A stretch of 64,000 nucleotides of DNA, from positions 1 to 64,000 of the forward strand of contig JAHJCU010000003.1 of the NCBI GenBank assembly GCA_018812925.1. The letters are read 5' to 3'. This DNA comes from Candidatus Omnitrophota bacterium. Lineage in GTDB: Bacteria; CAIJMQ01. A program made the position numbers and the translations under genes. Within the stretch, counting starts at the first letter, position 1. Each line of letters opens with the position of its first letter. The notes under the pieces were generated by a model, which saw nothing but the letters and a program-made list of their open reading frames with translations, was not told where the DNA came from and did not search any database. Below, in pieces: positions 35,967 to 43,188 of this stretch.

Positions 35967-38189
35967 TTGAAAAAACTCCGTGTAATCAATTCCTATACTA
36001 TCGGCTTTTTCACCATCGCAGTAATCGTTTTCCTTTATTTCGTCCCGATCGATTTCATTAACCAACTTGAACTGAAAACATTTGATTTAAGATTTAAAAT
36101 TTTTCAGGAAACAATTCCCTCGCAAAATATCGTTATCGTTACCATAGACAACAAGTCGGAAGATAAAATCGGACGATTCCCCTGGTCCAGAGACACATAT
36201 GCAAAGGTTATAGATAACTTAAATAAATGGGGCGCTAAAGTAATAGGAATAGATGTTCTTTTCTCGATGGCAGAAGATAATCCGTTATCGGAGGTTCTTA
36301 ATAAAACAGATTTAAAAGATAGGGTTTCCGAAGACCTTATAGAAGAATACAGGAAGAAATTCGATAACGATAAAATCTTGACTGATTCGATAAAAAAAGC
36401 CGGCAATGTAGTGCTTGGGTATTATTTTTTGACAGAGGGCGATGAGCAGGTAAAACACATTACGGAAGCTGAAAAACAAAAGGCAAAGAGATTAATCTCA
36501 AAAGCTCAAATTTCTTTGGTAAGTTCCGGTGTTAAAGGCGATGAGAAATTCCTCCTTCGCAGAGGATATGGAATAGAGACAAGTATTGAGCAAATATCTC
36601 GCGCTTGTAAAAACTACGGATTCTTAAACATATTCCCCGATTCGGATGGGGTCTTGAGAAAAGTCACGTTTCCGATGAAATATGAACACGAAAAAGACTG
36701 GTATGCTTCGTTCCCATTGCAGATATTAAAAAATTATTTTGATGAAAATATACAGCTCGGAGTTTCTAATAATGGCATATCAGCTCTTGCTTTGGGAGAA
36801 AAAATTATTCCCGTTGATGCGAGCGGGGCGTTATTTGTAGATTACAGCGTTAGTTCCCAATCTTTCCCTACCGAATCTTTTGTAGATGTTATGACCGGAA
36901 CAGTTGATAATCCCGCGAAATTCAAGGATAAAATTGTTCTAATAGGAATAACAGACCCGGGTCTTGTTCGTGATACCTGGCCTACGCCGACCGAGACGGT
37001 AGTCCCGGGCATAAAAATACACGCGCAGACAATAGATACTGTTCTTAATAACAGATTCATATCTTATGCCCGCACAATGATGAACGGTGAATTTGTGTAT
37101 TCTTCCGACGGAATAAACATTTTAAATCTTTTAGCCATAATTCTGTTAGGCGCAATACTAATTTTTGCTATTCCGAAAGTTTCTCAAGCAAGTTACGGAG
37201 CTTATATAAGTTTGTTGCTTGTTGCAGGTTATAGTTTTGCTGGGTTTTATTTATTTCATAATATGAAAATACGGCTAAATATGTTCTATCCGCTTTCAAG
37301 CATTGCTCTTGTTTATACGACACAGGCGCTTTACAGAGCGTTGACTACCGAACGAAAGGCGCGCGAAATAAGAGGCGCTTTCCAAACATATGTTCCTCCC
37401 CAAATTGTAGACGAACTTATAAAAAATCCCGAGAAATTAAAACTTGGCGGAGAAAGAAAAACTGTTTCGATACTTTATTCAGATGTAAAGGGTTTTACGA
37501 CTATCTCGGAGAAGCTTTCCCCTGAAGAACTTGTAGAATTTATGAATAATTATCTTACGCCAATGAGCGACATAGTGTTTAAATATGAAGGCACACTTGA
37601 TAAATATATCGGGGATGCTGTATTGGCTTTCTACGGCGCGCCATTGCCGCAGGAAGACCATCCTTTAAGAGTTGTCCTTTCGGCTTTGGATATGATAAGC
37701 GCTCTAAAAGAATTGCGGAAAAAATTAAAAGAAGAAAACAAACCCTCAATAGATGTAGGAATCGGTATCAATACGGGCGAAGTGTCCGTAGGAAACATGG
37801 GTTCTAAGATGCGGCTTGATTATACGATAATGGGGGATAATGTAAATCTTACCCAGCGGATAGAAGAATTGACCAGAATATATAAAAACAATATCTTACT
37901 AAGCGAATATACTTATCAAAAGATAAAAGAAAATATCGTTTGCAGAGAAATTGACGAAGTTACTGTAAGGGGAAAGACGCAAGGTGTAAAAATTTATGAA
38001 CCGATTTGCAGGAAGGAAGAAATAACTCCTGAAATCGAAAATATTGTTAAACATTTTGAAGCGGGGCTAAAACTTTATAAATCGGGTGAATTTTCTTCCG
38101 CAGGGAAAGAATTTTCACAAGTATTGCAAATTGTCCCTGAAGACGGTCCAAGTAAATATTATTTGGAGAAATGCAGACAAATTAAATAA
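35967..38189 (+). CDS. CHASE2-domain adenylate/guanylate cyclase
   Basis: IVIVTIDNKSEDKIGRFPWSRDTYAKVIDNL, C-term SILYSDVKGFTTISEKLSPEELVEFMNNYL, GDAVLAFYGAP, GIGINTGEVSVGNMGS. Confidence 0.95.
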   Translation: MKKLRVINSYTIGFFTIAVIVFLYFVPIDFINQLELKTFDLRFKIFQETIPSQNIVIVTIDNKSEDKIGRFPWSRDTYAKVIDNLNKWGAKVIGIDVLFSMAEDNPLSEVLNKTDLKDRVSEDLIEEYRKKFDNDKILTDSIKKAGNVVLGYYFLTEGDEQVKHITEAEKQKAKRLISKAQISLVSSGVKGDEKFLLRRGYGIETSIEQISRACKNYGFLNIFPDSDGVLRKVTFPMKYEHEKDWYASFPLQILKNYFDENIQLGVSNNGISALALGEKIIPVDASGALFVDYSVSSQSFPTESFVDVMTGTVDNPAKFKDKIVLIGITDPGLVRDTWPTPTETVVPGIKIHAQTIDTVLNNRFISYARTMMNGEFVYSSDGINILNLLAIILLGAILIFAIPKVSQASYGAYISLLLVAGYSFAGFYLFHNMKIRLNMFYPLSSIALVYTTQALYRALTTERKAREIRGAFQTYVPPQIVDELIKNPEKLKLGGERKTVSILYSDVKGFTTISEKLSPEELVEFMNNYLTPMSDIVFKYEGTLDKYIGDAVLAFYGAPLPQEDHPLRVVLSALDMISALKELRKKLKEENKPSIDVGIGINTGEVSVGNMGSKMRLDYTIMGDNVNLTQRIEELTRIYKNNILLSEYTYQKIKENIVCREIDEVTVRGKTQGVKIYEPICRKEEITPEIENIVKHFEAGLKLYKSGEFSSAGKEFSQVLQIVPEDGPSKYYLEKCRQIK

Positions 38190-38211
38190 GAATTAATAGA
38201 GATTTAAAAAT

Positions 38212-38263
38212 AATTATCTGCTATCATGAACTCATTAAGAGTAACTGTTCAATGATATATATT
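38212..38263 (+). promoter_or_regulatory. 52-bp promoter/attI-like block, copy 1
   Basis: aattatctgctatcatgaactcattaagagtaactgttcaatgatatatatt; 47/52 identical to 42127-42178; extended -10 TGcTATCAT at 38219-38227; ends at the cassette-1 junction. Confidence 0.55.
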
Positions 38264-38277
38264 CGGTGGAGGAGAAA

Positions 38278-38796
38278 ATGAAGAAGAGTAACTGGATTGC
38301 CATCATTGCTCTTGTTGCTCTGGTCGCAGGCGAGGCTATTGCTGCCCCCGGAATGCAGAAGGTGGAATACCTGTCTGATTCAATCGCACAGAAGGACGGA
38401 AAGGTGATCAAACTTCTCGGTGGTTCAAGCTGGGTGTTGTCGTCACCGACTCTTGCGCTAGTGACTGACGACATCATCATTGTGTTTCAGGATGTCGTGT
38501 TGAAAAACAAGAAGACGGTAAAGGTAGCCATCGCCTACGTCGATGGTGACGAGATCATTGCGACTCATGCTGGCGGGACATACGCCACAAGCACCGGGTT
38601 CCTGACTGCCGTAGTCGAGTCACTGGGAGATGGTGCCGTCCTCAAGTTGGCGGACGGTTCACTCTTGTCCATTCCGCAGTATGACCGATACGACACGGGT
38701 TGGTGGTTGCCGCCATACAAAGCGCTGCTGACCGGCAATCGGATGTACCTCTGGAATCTGAAGAAAGGCAAGCGTGTCTGGGTCCAGATGAAGTAG
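38278..38796 (+). CDS. Cassette 1: secreted hypothetical protein, GC-rich codon usage
   Basis: RBS ggagg at 38268; MKKSNWIAIIALVALVAGEAIAAPG signal peptide. Confidence 0.8.
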   Translation: MKKSNWIAIIALVALVAGEAIAAPGMQKVEYLSDSIAQKDGKVIKLLGGSSWVLSSPTLALVTDDIIIVFQDVVLKNKKTVKVAIAYVDGDEIIATHAGGTYATSTGFLTAVVESLGDGAVLKLADGSLLSIPQYDRYDTGWWLPPYKALLTGNRMYLWNLKKGKRVWVQMK

Positions 38797-38801
38797 AAAC
38801 C

Positions 38802-38859
38802 ACCAAACCAAGCACTGCACGGTACGGCGTACCGCCGCCCGTGAGGGGCGACGTTAGAG
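38802..38859 (+). repeat. attC-like site 1
   Basis: ACCAAACCAAGCACTGCACGG...CCCGTGAGGGGCGACGTTAGAG; L'' GCACTGCACGG vs L' CCGTGAGGGGC imperfect inverted repeat; core GTTAGAG. Confidence 0.65.
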
Positions 38860-38869
38860 GTAAATAAAA

Positions 38870-39388
38870 ATGGATCCAATAGCATTTAGTTTACATATTC
38901 AAGACTTAGAAAATAAATGCAATTTGCCTCAAGGCTTTATGCATTCGCTACCAAATGAAAATGACTGGAGCTTTATCATTAAGACCTATGCTATTTTTGA
39001 AGCCTTGCTGTCTGAATTGATTGCTAAAATATCTGTTAAACCGGAATTGCGATCTTTTTTTCTGAAGCTCGATATGTGTTCGAATCCTATTGGTAAATTA
39101 GCTTTGTTAAAAAAGTTATCGCTACTAGAGGAACCTGAATGTAAATTCATACGTGCTTTATCTGATTTACGAAATATTTACGCGCACAATATTAAAAAGA
39201 TTTCAGCCTCCATAGAAGATACCATCGTTTCATTCCCATCTGATAAACAAAAAAAGATAGTTCAAGATTTGAGTTTTAGTTTGCACAAAAAAGATGATTT
39301 CGAAAAAAATAAAAAACAATGCATTTGGGTTGCGTCAGTTATGTTGTTGTGTCAAATAAATGAAAGAACGTATAAGAAAACTCTATAA
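38870..39388 (+). CDS. Cassette 2: HEPN-like hypothetical protein
   Basis: All-helical appearance; LSDLRNIYAHNI = R-x4-H HEPN signature. Confidence 0.7.
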   Translation: MDPIAFSLHIQDLENKCNLPQGFMHSLPNENDWSFIIKTYAIFEALLSELIAKISVKPELRSFFLKLDMCSNPIGKLALLKKLSLLEEPECKFIRALSDLRNIYAHNIKKISASIEDTIVSFPSDKQKKIVQDLSFSLHKKDDFEKNKKQCIWVASVMLLCQINERTYKKTL

Positions 39389-39467
39389 CAAATCAATCGA
39401 GCGGACAATCCTCGCCGCTAAATCGGATTCGGGAAGGCTCGTCACGCCGCTGATTTTTATGTTATAG
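39383..39467 (+). repeat. attC-like site 2
   Basis: CTATAAC(39383-39389)...GTTATAG(39461-39467) perfect inverted core sites; AACAAATCAATCGAGCGGAC...GCCGCTGATTTTTAT arms. Confidence 0.85.
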
Positions 39468-39480
39468 GAAAAAATGAAAA

Positions 39481-40119
39481 ATGAATATAACTCCTAATAT
39501 TCTCAAAAACAAGTTTGAAATGAGTGCGAAAGATATAAATACGTGGATATTAAATAAAGACTGGGCTTTCGATATAGATTTCGATAACGGGAAAATTAGC
39601 TTATTTCGTGAAAGAAACAAAAATGAATATACCTGTAGATTTGCTCCAAAAGGCATTGAAGTTTGTTACTTGGCACAAGACCCCGTTGAAAGAGAAAAAG
39701 AAGTAGGCGGTTCGAAACAAACAAAAAAAGTATATTTTATTAATAAAAATTTAAGAATTATTGATTTAAATTTACAGGGTCCAACTAACAGAGTAAATGA
39801 TATAAAAAAATCATTTAAAGGCCTCGAAAAATTAGTAGGCGGAAAAAGAAGCAAAGAAAACTATAAGGATAGTTGTTTATTTGCAAAACACGCAATAGAG
39901 GCAGGATTTGATGGCATTTATTATTCTGTACACCCAGATGAAAAACACACTAGTGAGTTTCAGGAGAAAGTTATTGAAACAATTAAAAAAACAAGCCCCC
40001 ACTTTGAGTTTAATAACGCTATGGGCCCTAAAGAACGACTTGTGATTTTTAAAAATAATAAAGAGATAATAAGCTTTGCTAAAGATAAATATCAAGACCA
40101 AATAAAGTTTGAAAAATAA
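39481..40119 (+). CDS. Cassette 3 gene a: RES-domain-like protein
   Basis: CRFAPKGIEVCYLAQDP...KVYFINKNLRIIDLN...CLFAKHAIEAGFDGIYYSV resembles the RES-family layout. Confidence 0.55.
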   Translation: MNITPNILKNKFEMSAKDINTWILNKDWAFDIDFDNGKISLFRERNKNEYTCRFAPKGIEVCYLAQDPVEREKEVGGSKQTKKVYFINKNLRIIDLNLQGPTNRVNDIKKSFKGLEKLVGGKRSKENYKDSCLFAKHAIEAGFDGIYYSVHPDEKHTSEFQEKVIETIKKTSPHFEFNNAMGPKERLVIFKNNKEIISFAKDKYQDQIKFEK

Positions 40120-40122
40120 ATT

Positions 40123-40641
40123 ATGGCAAAAATAATTGCTTTTAAGAAATGGCACATATCTCTAGATGACAACAAGGGAGTCACTTTGGACCTTCCCTAT
40201 CCTGAAAAATTTGAAAATAACGAAGAAAAAGAAAAGTACGAAAAGGCAAAAAATATGGAAGCCCCTACACTCCTCATAGAGAATAAATTTCTATTTGGAG
40301 AATGGCTATTTGAATTAAATAACTATGAAAGAACACTGGATGATGAAAAGATTAAATTAATACTGTTGGAAGCCATAGATAAAGAAAGAAAAAAATTTGA
40401 ACGATTAAAGAAAAAATTCTCAACTCAATATTCTACCGATGAGATTAAAAGAAAAAGTATCCCTGAAGAAGTTCGCATCTTTGTATGGAGACGAGATGGT
40501 GGTCGCTGTGTAGAATGCAATAGCCAAGAAAATTTAGAGTTTGACCATATAATTCCTGTGAGCCAAGGAGGCTCTAGCACTGCCAGAAATATTCAACTGT
40601 TATGTGAAAAATGTAATCGACAAAAAAGCAATAAAATATAA
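40123..40641 (+). CDS. Cassette 3 gene b: HNH endonuclease
   Basis: RRDGGRCVECNSQENLEFDHIIPVSQGGSSTARNIQLLCEKCNRQKSNKI. Confidence 0.93.
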   Translation: MAKIIAFKKWHISLDDNKGVTLDLPYPEKFENNEEKEKYEKAKNMEAPTLLIENKFLFGEWLFELNNYERTLDDEKIKLILLEAIDKERKKFERLKKKFSTQYSTDEIKRKSIPEEVRIFVWRRDGGRCVECNSQENLEFDHIIPVSQGGSSTARNIQLLCEKCNRQKSNKI

Positions 40642-40651
40642 AGAGGATTTT

Positions 40652-40789
40652 ATGAAATGCTCAATATGTGGCGAAGAACAAGTATCTACTTGCGAAAGAC
40701 CTATTACTCTTGGTGGTCTAGGAGAAGCAAAAACTCAACCAATTTGTGATGATTGTTATGCTAAAATGTTAGAAAATGAGGAGGGATAA
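40652..40789 (+). CDS. Cassette 3 gene c: 45-aa zinc-ribbon-like protein
   Basis: MKCSICGEEQVSTCERPITLGGLGEAKTQPICDDCYAKMLENEEG; CxxC...CxxC; gaggat upstream. Confidence 0.7.
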   Translation: MKCSICGEEQVSTCERPITLGGLGEAKTQPICDDCYAKMLENEEG

Positions 40790-40791
40790 CA

Positions 40792-41220
40792 ATGTTCAAA
40801 GATTATTCTTTTGAAATTGAACAGATTAAGGAATCGCTTTCTTCTATAAAAGATAAGATCGATAAAATAGAAAAACTTATAGTAGGCACATCAGATGATA
40901 TTAATTTTGTGAAAAGTCATTTTGGATTAGAGCATAATTTTAGAAAAGGAAAACGAACAAAATATGATATAACACGGTTAATCCATTGGATTTTACTAAA
41001 GAATAAAGACATAAAAGATGAACAAGTATTTAATCAAATAATTGATTTTATAGCTACAATGGATGATAAAAAATTCAACTTCACACTCCATAATGATGAT
41101 AAAAATAAAAAAGCTAAAGAAGAATATAATATATGGAGAGATGAAATTAAGAATGAATGGTTGGAAGAGATTAAATGGGTAAGAGAAGAAATTGAGGCAG
41201 ATAAAGTGGGAAATAAATAA
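40792..41220 (+). CDS. Cassette 3 gene d: hypothetical protein with N-terminal coiled coil
   Basis: EIEQIKESLSSIKDKIDKIEKLI heptad-like; starts 3 nt after gene c. Confidence 0.7.
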   Translation: MFKDYSFEIEQIKESLSSIKDKIDKIEKLIVGTSDDINFVKSHFGLEHNFRKGKRTKYDITRLIHWILLKNKDIKDEQVFNQIIDFIATMDDKKFNFTLHNDDKNKKAKEEYNIWRDEIKNEWLEEIKWVREEIEADKVGNK

Positions 41221-41223
41221 AAT

Positions 41224-41303
41224 TTATAACAACTCAATCCAGCGGATAATCCTCGCCGCTTCTTCAGCTGGAGGCTCGGTTTGCCGCTCATTTTATGTTA
41301 AAT
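41224..41303 (+). repeat. attC-like site 3
   Basis: TTATAACAACTCAATCCAGCGGATAATCCTCGCCGCTT...GCCGCTCATTTTATGTTAAAT; strongly similar to attC 2. Confidence 0.82.
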
Positions 41304-41889
41304 GAAAAATAAAAATGACAATAATCTGGAGGACCAAATGCCTAACAAGACAAAAAATTTGATATATCAAGCTTTACCCGCTTTGATTAATGGCGCAGAA
41401 TCAATTTCATGGAATAGGTTTAATAATTTTCTCCTATTCAATTCCATTCTAATATTAGCATGGGCAACTATTTATGCGAATATCAATGAAGAAATCACTA
41501 CCAACCACTCTTTTTTATTAGGCGGTATTTGTATATTAGGTCTCGCCATAAGCTTCATTTGGTGTGCATTAGGTTTCCGGGGCAGAAGTAACGTTGACTT
41601 ATTTCTTAAAATAGGGAAAGCTATTGAGTCGAATTATCCAGAGGGTCATAAACCAATCACGGAGGCGGCAAAATTGAGAGATACGCAGCCTTTCTCATGG
41701 AGCGGATCAACTTATATACTCACTATAACCCCTCTCTTAATAGCATTGCTCTATACATTATTTTTGTGGTTCTCAATTCCAAAATTAATAATCAAAACAA
41801 TTTTTTTAACAGTATCAATTATACTCATTATTGTTTTTATTTGTCTTACACTGGGATATATCAAGAGAAGGCATTCGAAGAAGTGTTGA
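41302..41889 (+). CDS. Cassette 4: multi-TM hypothetical membrane protein
   Basis: ATG in or near the attC junction; TM segments; FRGRSNVDLFLKIGKAIES, FSWSGSTYILTITPLLIALLY. Confidence 0.7.
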   Translation: MKNKNDNNLEDQMPNKTKNLIYQALPALINGAESISWNRFNNFLLFNSILILAWATIYANINEEITTNHSFLLGGICILGLAISFIWCALGFRGRSNVDLFLKIGKAIESNYPEGHKPITEAAKLRDTQPFSWSGSTYILTITPLLIALLYTLFLWFSIPKLIIKTIFLTVSIILIIVFICLTLGYIKRRHSKKC

Positions 41890-41942
41890 AAATTGTCCCT
41901 GAAGACGGTCCGAGTAAATATTATTTGGAGAAAAGCAAATAA
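41880..41942 (+). pseudogene. Remnant of a CHASE2-cyclase-like 3' end
   Basis: Frame of ORF 41697-41942: AFEEVLKIVPEDGPSKYYLEKSK vs EFSQVLQIVPEDGPSKYYLEKCRQIK at the end of 35967-38189. Confidence 0.75.
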
Positions 41943-41968
41943 AATTCAAAAGTCAAAATGCAAAATGC

Positions 41969-42030
41969 CCTTAGAGATTGAAAACAATCTCAAGGACTTT
42001 AGTCCCGGAAATTCTCTGAATTTCTCGGGG
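41969..42030. repeat. Double stem-loop in the non-coding gap
   Basis: CCTTaGAGATTG-aaaa-CAATCTCAAGG (41969-41995) and CCCGgAAATTC-tct-GAATTTctCGGG (42004-42029). Confidence 0.55.
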
Positions 42031-42113
42031 CAAAATTACAAAGCAAAATTCAAAATCTCAAAAGATTATAAAAAAATTTATATTTAATGTTTGATTTAAG
42101 AGCTAGAACTTCT

Positions 42114-42178
42114 TTGACGCATATAAAATTATCTGCTACCATGAACTAATTAAGACTAACTGTTCAATGATGTATGTT
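42114..42178 (+). promoter_or_regulatory. Promoter plus 52-bp attI-like block, copy 2
   Basis: TTGACG(42114-42119)-N17-TACCAT(42137-42142), extended TGc; block 42127-42178 is 47/52 identical to 38212-38263; ends at junction GTTATAT. Confidence 0.6.
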
Positions 42179-42180
42179 AT

Positions 42181-42576
42181 ATGAATAAAAAGATTAAAAA
42201 TAAATTAATAAATTTACCCATAGCATTGTTATTACTGCTTGGCGGAATTTTGACATTTATAATCACCCAGCAAGGGATAGATGATTTATTCTCTACGATT
42301 ATTTATATAGCTTTTGGCATCCTTTTTGTTCTATCTAGCATAACTTTGGTAGGATCAATTTCAAAACGCAGTTATTTATTAACAATCACAACGTGTTCTT
42401 TATATATGCTGTTTTTTTTAGGGATCACTACTTATATTTTAAAAACAGATAAAACAGGACAAGGCCTAGTAGGTTTAATGTTTCTTGTGCCTCAGGCAGC
42501 CATAAGTTTATTAGCAGTTCTTTTTTCAATTTTTAGATTGAAAAATATAAATCATATAACAAGTCAATCCAGCTGA
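42181..42576 (+). CDS. Cassette 5: multi-TM hypothetical protein (stop codon inside attC)
   Basis: ORF start overlaps the junction GTTATAT; ends ...NHITSQSS* within attC 4. Confidence 0.7.
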   Translation: MNKKIKNKLINLPIALLLLLGGILTFIITQQGIDDLFSTIIYIAFGILFVLSSITLVGSISKRSYLLTITTCSLYMLFFLGITTYILKTDKTGQGLVGLMFLVPQAAISLLAVLFSIFRLKNINHITSQSS

Positions 42577-42626
42577 CCCTTCACGCCGCTTGCAGCGTGA
42601 AGGGTCAGCTGATTTTTGTATTAGTT
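42554..42626 (+). repeat. attC-like site 4
   Basis: ATATAACAAGTCAATCC + perfect 16-bp stem AGCTGACCCTTCACGC(42571-42586)/GCGTGAAGGGTCAGCT(42595-42610) + GATTTTTGTATTAGTT. Confidence 0.78.
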
Positions 42627-42642
42627 TGAAAGGAGAAACAAG

Positions 42643-43122
42643 ATGAAGAAGATTCTGTCTATGATTTTCCTTGCTCTATTGTGTGGAGTATGCGGGAATA
42701 CATCGGTTCAGCAAGTGAATACTATTGACCAAAACGTTACGATTGAATTGTCGGTCAGAATGGAAGTCAATGGTAATATTGAGGATTCACATAATACCCA
42801 ATTCATCATAACAAAAGGAAGTGCGATTCCTGCTAGTTTGACCCTCAAATCAGACAGTAATGTCACTGTGACTTTTACAGACTTTCGTCTTGAAGACGAG
42901 AAGGTTCTATTTGGCGCATGGGGGTTTGATGGGTTCGCTAACCTGTCATCCAAGAGCGGAACAAAGGGTACTGCCTGGCCTTATAACGCTCAGCAATCAG
43001 GCGGTTTCTCTATTCCCGTTGATGGAAGCAAGGAACTGGATAAATTGCTGACTTGGTACGAGACGGAGATCAACGACGAACTGATGAAAGCCTATGTGAC
43101 CATGAATATGAGGACAAACTAA
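42643..43122 (+). CDS. Cassette 6: secreted hypothetical protein
   Basis: RBS aaaggaga; MKKILSMIFLALLCGVCG N-terminal signal. Confidence 0.75.
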   Translation: MKKILSMIFLALLCGVCGNTSVQQVNTIDQNVTIELSVRMEVNGNIEDSHNTQFIITKGSAIPASLTLKSDSNVTVTFTDFRLEDEKVLFGAWGFDGFANLSSKSGTKGTAWPYNAQQSGGFSIPVDGSKELDKLLTWYETEINDELMKAYVTMNMRTN

Positions 43123-43188
43123 CAACCGCCTGCAACATATTTGCTGAAAGCTGCGCTTTCAGCAAAATGCTGAGGCGAAACATTATAG
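43117..43188 (+). repeat. attC-like site 5 (array end)
   Basis: AACTAACAACCGCCTGCAACA...TGCTGAGGCGAAACATTATAG; inner 12-bp stem TTTGCTGAAAGC/GCTTTCAGCAAA. Confidence 0.8.

Follow-up and report, generated by a model that had tools for sequence, protein, structure and literature searches.

The window, i.e., the whole stretch of 64,000 nucleotides analyzed here, contains an integron cassette in which four genes are packed in front of a single attC site. The first gene encodes what is very probably a divergent RES-domain protein, and the others encode an HNH endonuclease, a 45-amino-acid probable zinc ribbon, and a protein predicted to be helical. We read the set as an operonic RES/HNH conflict module (toxin-antitoxin [TA] or abortive defense) that moved as one integron cassette, and we consider this reading evenly balanced between right and wrong.

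The features of the cassette are listed in Table 1. It is 1,836 bp in length and is flanked by attC2 and attC3, whose G|TT recombination points, placed from the R' boxes, fall at 39461/39462 and 41297/41298, respectively, in exact agreement with the cassette coordinates given by the first-pass annotation (39462-41297). The four tightly packed ORFs it had described are also found. All are on the plus strand (212, 172, 45, and 142 codons), leave 3, 10, and 2 nt between neighbors, and occupy 94% of the cassette, so that there is hardly any other DNA inside. All four look coding, because their in-frame codon scores are positive (0.20 to 0.37 bits/codon) and those of the other five frames are all negative when 18 long ORFs from the 64-kb window serve as the training set. 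Shine-Dalgarno sequences are clear ahead of ORF3 (GAGG) and ORF4 (GAGGAGGG). Promoter- and terminator-like sites are as frequent as in shuffled sequences, i.e., there is no promoter evidence above chance.

Table 1. Positions of the attC sites, the cassette, and its ORFs in the window
Feature	Position	Strand	Basis
First attC site of the array	38793-38858		
attC2, left boundary, part of the upstream HEPN cassette	39384..39466	+	99.8 bits, local attC model; bottom-strand fold z -2.6
Four-gene cassette (G|TT to G|TT)	39462..41297	+	Recombination points inferred from attC R' boxes
ORF1, very probable divergent RES-domain protein, 212 aa (R43, R53, Y63, E74, S149)	39481..40119	+	Pfam and profile tests
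ORF2, HNH endonuclease, 172 aa (HNH, aa 129-171; orphan N-terminal ~100 aa)	40123..40641	+	PF01844, E 7e-14; PHROG HNH families
ORF3, 45-aa CxxC...CxxC protein, probable zinc ribbon	40652..40789	+	Four cysteines, Shine-Dalgarno, coding-like codons
ORF4, 142-aa helical/coiled-coil protein	40792..41220	+	Low-confidence all-helical model, pLDDT 50
attC3, right boundary, recombination site of the cassette itself	41225..41302	+	84.5 bits, local attC model
Fifth attC, strongly palindromic, ends the array	~43118-43187		

No attC lies within the cassette, as had been claimed from the sequence at the outset. The sites attC2, attC3, and attC4 were used to build a covariance model, which was run without filters over 36-46 kb; at the cassette it finds only the flanking sites. 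The best internal match reaches 9.6 bits (E 3.2), versus 69-100 bits for the real sites, which rules out a missed attC; gaps of 2-10 nt leave no space for one. The lowest of the real scores is that of attC4 (69 bits). The bottom strand of attC4 folds better than its shuffles (z -7.7), that of attC5 also folds well, and that of attC3 gives a weaker signal (z -1.3) than attC2, with which attC3 shares 85% identity over 48 nt.

The cassette lies in an array of approximately six cassettes and five attC sites (about 38262-43187). The products are, in order, a secreted protein, a HEPN-like protein, those of the four genes described here, an 8xMP-like membrane protein, and then a membrane protein of 131 aa and a secreted one of 159 aa. 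The ORF of the last of these (42643-43122) is also a cassette gene, because the fifth attC closes the array. The definition of a CALIN, an attC array without its own integrase, was applied (PMC9668308). At least two attC sites with a bottom-strand fold and R'/R'' boxes are required within 4 kb, and five are present in 38793-43187; the genes between the sites are in one orientation, and the contents vary among relatives. Matches to the intI integrase model TIGR02249 over the cut-off number zero in 7 genomes of the phylum, as opposed to what a complete integron would contain, and the two matches under the cut-off in the source genome are Xer-type recombinases of ~300 aa. Since the genome lacks intI, the array is a CALIN, with the caveat that this genome (1.47 Mb in 14 contigs) is an estimated 92% complete.

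The same site was compared in two relatives. In a sister genus (G001), the cyclase and histidine kinase genes that neighbor the array here are adjacent with zero cassettes between them, i.e., the insertion site is empty. In a congener (G002), the 3' border is homologous, with its break at the identical base (TTATAG|GAAAAAG versus TTAGAG|TAAAAAG), but the array upstream of it is a different one (L052:3460-4540), in which attC-like sites follow a YafQ toxin gene and a Phd/YefM-ParE pair. The empty site in the one and the other cassettes in the other show that the array turns over between relatives, and a variable cassette array is thereby documented in a poorly sampled phylum.

Several features of the neighboring cassettes were also observed. 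In the adjoining single-gene cassette (38854-39461), the product of the ORF at 38870-39388 is HEPN-like and contains RNIYAH, a motif of the RNase type (PF18730, E 0.01; Csx1/Csm6 HEPN region in PADLOC, E 0.0014). The gene at 41302-41889 resembles the 8xMP membrane family (PF24838, E 2.5e-6, slightly under the cut-off), and its C-terminus extends into a duplicated flank: the cyclase gene's 3' end, together with the ~50 nt after it, is present twice with ~80% identity (38102-38285 and 41864-42200), the second copy being inside the array. The copies part at TAT[AG]|TT (38262 and 42177), as though a cassette had entered at both copies of one attI-like site. A segment of ~175 nt with short inverted repeats (41953-42126), which is possibly a small repeat element, separates the halves of the duplicated flank. 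The first cassette gene (38266-38796) has a GC content of 53% versus 37% for the window, which points to a foreign source.

ORF1 very probably encodes a RES protein that is divergent and has no Xre partner. Its match to the Pfam RES family (PF08808) has an E value of 0.0019 and a score of 18.7 bits, under the curated cut-off of 23.2 bits. Against a profile of 30 independent RES domains from other genomes, picked by PF08808, ORF1 scores 13.0 bits, and none of 5,000 shuffles of ORF1 reaches this score (best, 6.0 bits). The RES-like call made for 39481-40119 in the first-pass annotation thus appears to survive independent statistics. ORF1 scores best with a RES sub-group (e.g., L273, L275, and L276; L275 itself has a weak HEPN/RES N-terminal domain match), and a profile of five such sequences (L273, L275, L276, L277, and L279) gives 16.9 bits, the highest-scoring of 5,000 shuffles reaching 9.7 bits, whereas a profile of 18 other RES sequences (group B) does not separate ORF1 from its shuffles. 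These sub-groups were chosen by eye after the sequences had been seen, and the 30-sequence test is the one that carries weight. When ORF1 is compared by hhalign with a four-sequence RES profile, the score is weak.

The order of the RES motifs is recognizable in ORF1. R53-x9-Y63-x10-E74 aligns with the R-x9-Y-x10-E pattern conserved among RES domains, and residues 142-146 (GFDGI) align with their G[FY][DE]G motif. S149, which follows GFDGIYY, is placed by this motif, and counterparts of the active-site Arg, Tyr, Glu, and Ser can accordingly be assigned in ORF1. Arg, Glu, and Ser are described as the putative catalytic triad of RES proteins (PMC12457610), and R23, R82, Y93, S184, and N193 are the residues listed for NatT (PMC11535050). 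The active-site Asn (N193 of NatT) is absent at the expected place in ORF1, where R186/E185 is found before LVIF, and ~35 aa are inserted after S149. The AlphaFold model of ORF1, made from the single sequence without homologues, has a pLDDT of 36 and is not interpretable; Foldseek matches from the models of ORF1 and ORF4 (pLDDT 36 and 50) were dismissed as noise.

ORF2 contains an intact HNH domain with the DH, N, and zinc-binding CxxC pairs, and the HNH nuclease claimed for it is confirmed by the PF01844 match (Table 1). Its last ~65 residues are 50-66% identical to HNH domains of phages, plasmids, and bacteria, including bacteria of the same phylum, and these relatives carry many different N-termini. 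The N-terminal ~100 aa of ORF2 have zero relatives in 386 genomes. A homing endonuclease was rejected because there is no intron or intein context, and Septu, IscB, or Cas9 identity was rejected because the match is limited to the generic HNH region. The two CxxC pairs expected of the 45-aa protein are present in ORF3, which has no significant family match; its identity as a zinc ribbon is probable and is read from the CxxC...CxxC pattern. ORF4 has no family match, including in Pfam, PADLOC-DB, and PHROG.

In 386 genomes sampled across the domain, no convincing relative turned up for ORF1, ORF3, or ORF4. Searches of plasmids and phages were negative for all three, and searches of viral contigs were negative for ORF1 and ORF4. 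An 8-mer scan for ORF1 in 85,000 species genomes, sensitive only to close relatives, returned none. A DNA pattern that joins an HNH end to an MKC start detected no pair of HNH and zinc-protein genes, either in viral contigs or among the 118 genome matches listed, and degenerate motif searches of the viral collection, with patterns steered by synthetic alignment rows, found nothing. The single ORF1 match in the 386 genomes (L006) is a chance match inside an unrelated epimerase-like gene, and five weak matches to ORF3 and ORF4 (E 0.002-0.009) were taken as chance, i.e., short stretches within frames of 419-1,699 aa. The genomes, plasmids, phages, and viral contigs searched yielded no further copy of the four-gene set. 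The cassette is a singleton so far, which is usual for cassettes, most of which are known from a single integron (PMC8618304).

In the conflict module that we propose, ORF1 would be an enzyme of the RES family with an ADP-ribosyltransferase fold, predicted to consume NAD+ by phosphorolysis, hydrolysis, or ADP-ribosylation and to bring about cell arrest. The HNH nuclease of ORF2 would have DNA as its substrate and serve as a second effector or as a DNA-sensing arm, and ORF3 and/or ORF4 would be the likeliest control or antitoxin partners that hold the effectors in check. The four-gene operon would have been acquired and moved as a single unit. Because no second copy of the set was found, its function is something that we infer, including the enzymatic activity, the toxicity, which ORF restrains which, and an anti-phage or stabilizing role. 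The TA or anti-phage module suggested in the first-pass annotation is plausible and is favored by the Phd/YefM-ParE and YafQ genes that the congener carries at this site, by the adjoining HEPN-like cassette, and by how often integrons carry TA and defense functions; on the other hand, no defense model matches beyond the generic HNH region, there is no recognizable antitoxin, Xre or other, the set has no second copy, and the RES score of ORF1 is below the Pfam cut-off.

If the module were a new four-component defense system (a RES-type NAD+ consumer, an HNH nuclease, a four-cysteine protein, and a helical partner) travelling as a single cassette, which we think distinctly unlikely, integrons could move complete multigene immune operons and RES enzymes would extend to phage defense. 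A compact four-gene operon with one attC would show that larger modules shuffle as one cassette, and a RES enzyme together with a nuclease and without an Xre antitoxin is a concrete candidate that can be tested.

It is somewhat unlikely that the set is an accidental chain, i.e., that a multi-ORF piece such as a phage or plasmid operon fragment was captured with one attC and that its genes have unrelated roles, the HNH nuclease being free-standing and the RES protein acting alone. The four genes are not found together elsewhere, and the generic C-terminal HNH domain is fused to many N-termini, in relatives from the phylum and in phages, both of which would suit such a capture. The 2-10-nt gaps and the strong Shine-Dalgarno sequences, however, read as those of an evolved operon with almost no other DNA, this tight packing being the reason to regard the operon as having evolved as a unit, and no relatives of ORF1, ORF3, or ORF4 were seen among phages or plasmids. 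A TA core of two genes, the RES gene and one small partner, to which the HNH gene was added later and remained outside the mechanism, is improbable. Such a core would fit the RES proteins known mostly as toxins of two-gene systems (PMC2701414 and PMC11535050) and the TA genes in the congener cassettes, but the HNH gene directly follows the RES gene (3-nt gap) and precedes both small ORFs, which is an odd place for an insertion into a TA pair. It is very improbable that ORF1 has another fold and resembles RES enzymes by chance, as the subthreshold Pfam score, the weak hhalign score, the unusable model, and the group B profile would allow, since none of the 5,000 shuffles matches its score with either the 30-sequence or the five-sequence profile and the order and spacing of the RES motifs are kept.

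Among known systems, PADLOC-DB contains no full-length match to any of the four ORFs, only generic HNH-region matches, and the four-gene combination matches no PADLOC system. The proposed module resembles the HNH nucleases of phages and bacteria that have a C-terminal FERLK...CNRxK module (PtuB/IscB type) in its intact HNH domain, but differs from them in the N-terminal ~100 aa of ORF2, which have no detectable relative, and in having no Septu, IscB, or Cas9 context. It resembles the RES-Xre TA systems (ParST, MbcTA, and NatRT; COG5654) in the RES-like domain of ORF1, with aligned Arg, Tyr, and Glu and a Ser after GFDGI. In contrast to these systems, the cassette has no Xre, MbcA, or ParS antitoxin gene, and no Xre/HTH match was obtained in the four ORFs or the neighboring cassette genes; the lack of the Asn at its expected place and the insertion after S149 are further differences. 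According to the NatT paper, no RES TA system has been implicated in immunity (PMC11535050).

TA and phage-defense genes are common in integron cassettes (PMC8618304 and PMC12409362), including the TA and defense cassettes of Darracq et al. 2025 and Getz et al. 2025, as reviewed in PMC12409362. Cassettes are described with one, sometimes two, ORFs (PMC8618304, PMC12409362, and PMC12444791), and defense systems of more than two genes are reported as absent from integrons in the account that PMC12409362 gives, citing Darracq et al. The four ORFs in one cassette are therefore unusual relative to the published norm. The cassette differs in this respect from the TA and defense cassettes of Vibrio chromosomal integrons, and it resembles them in its conflict-type genes, in being bounded by attC sites, and in its place in a variable array.
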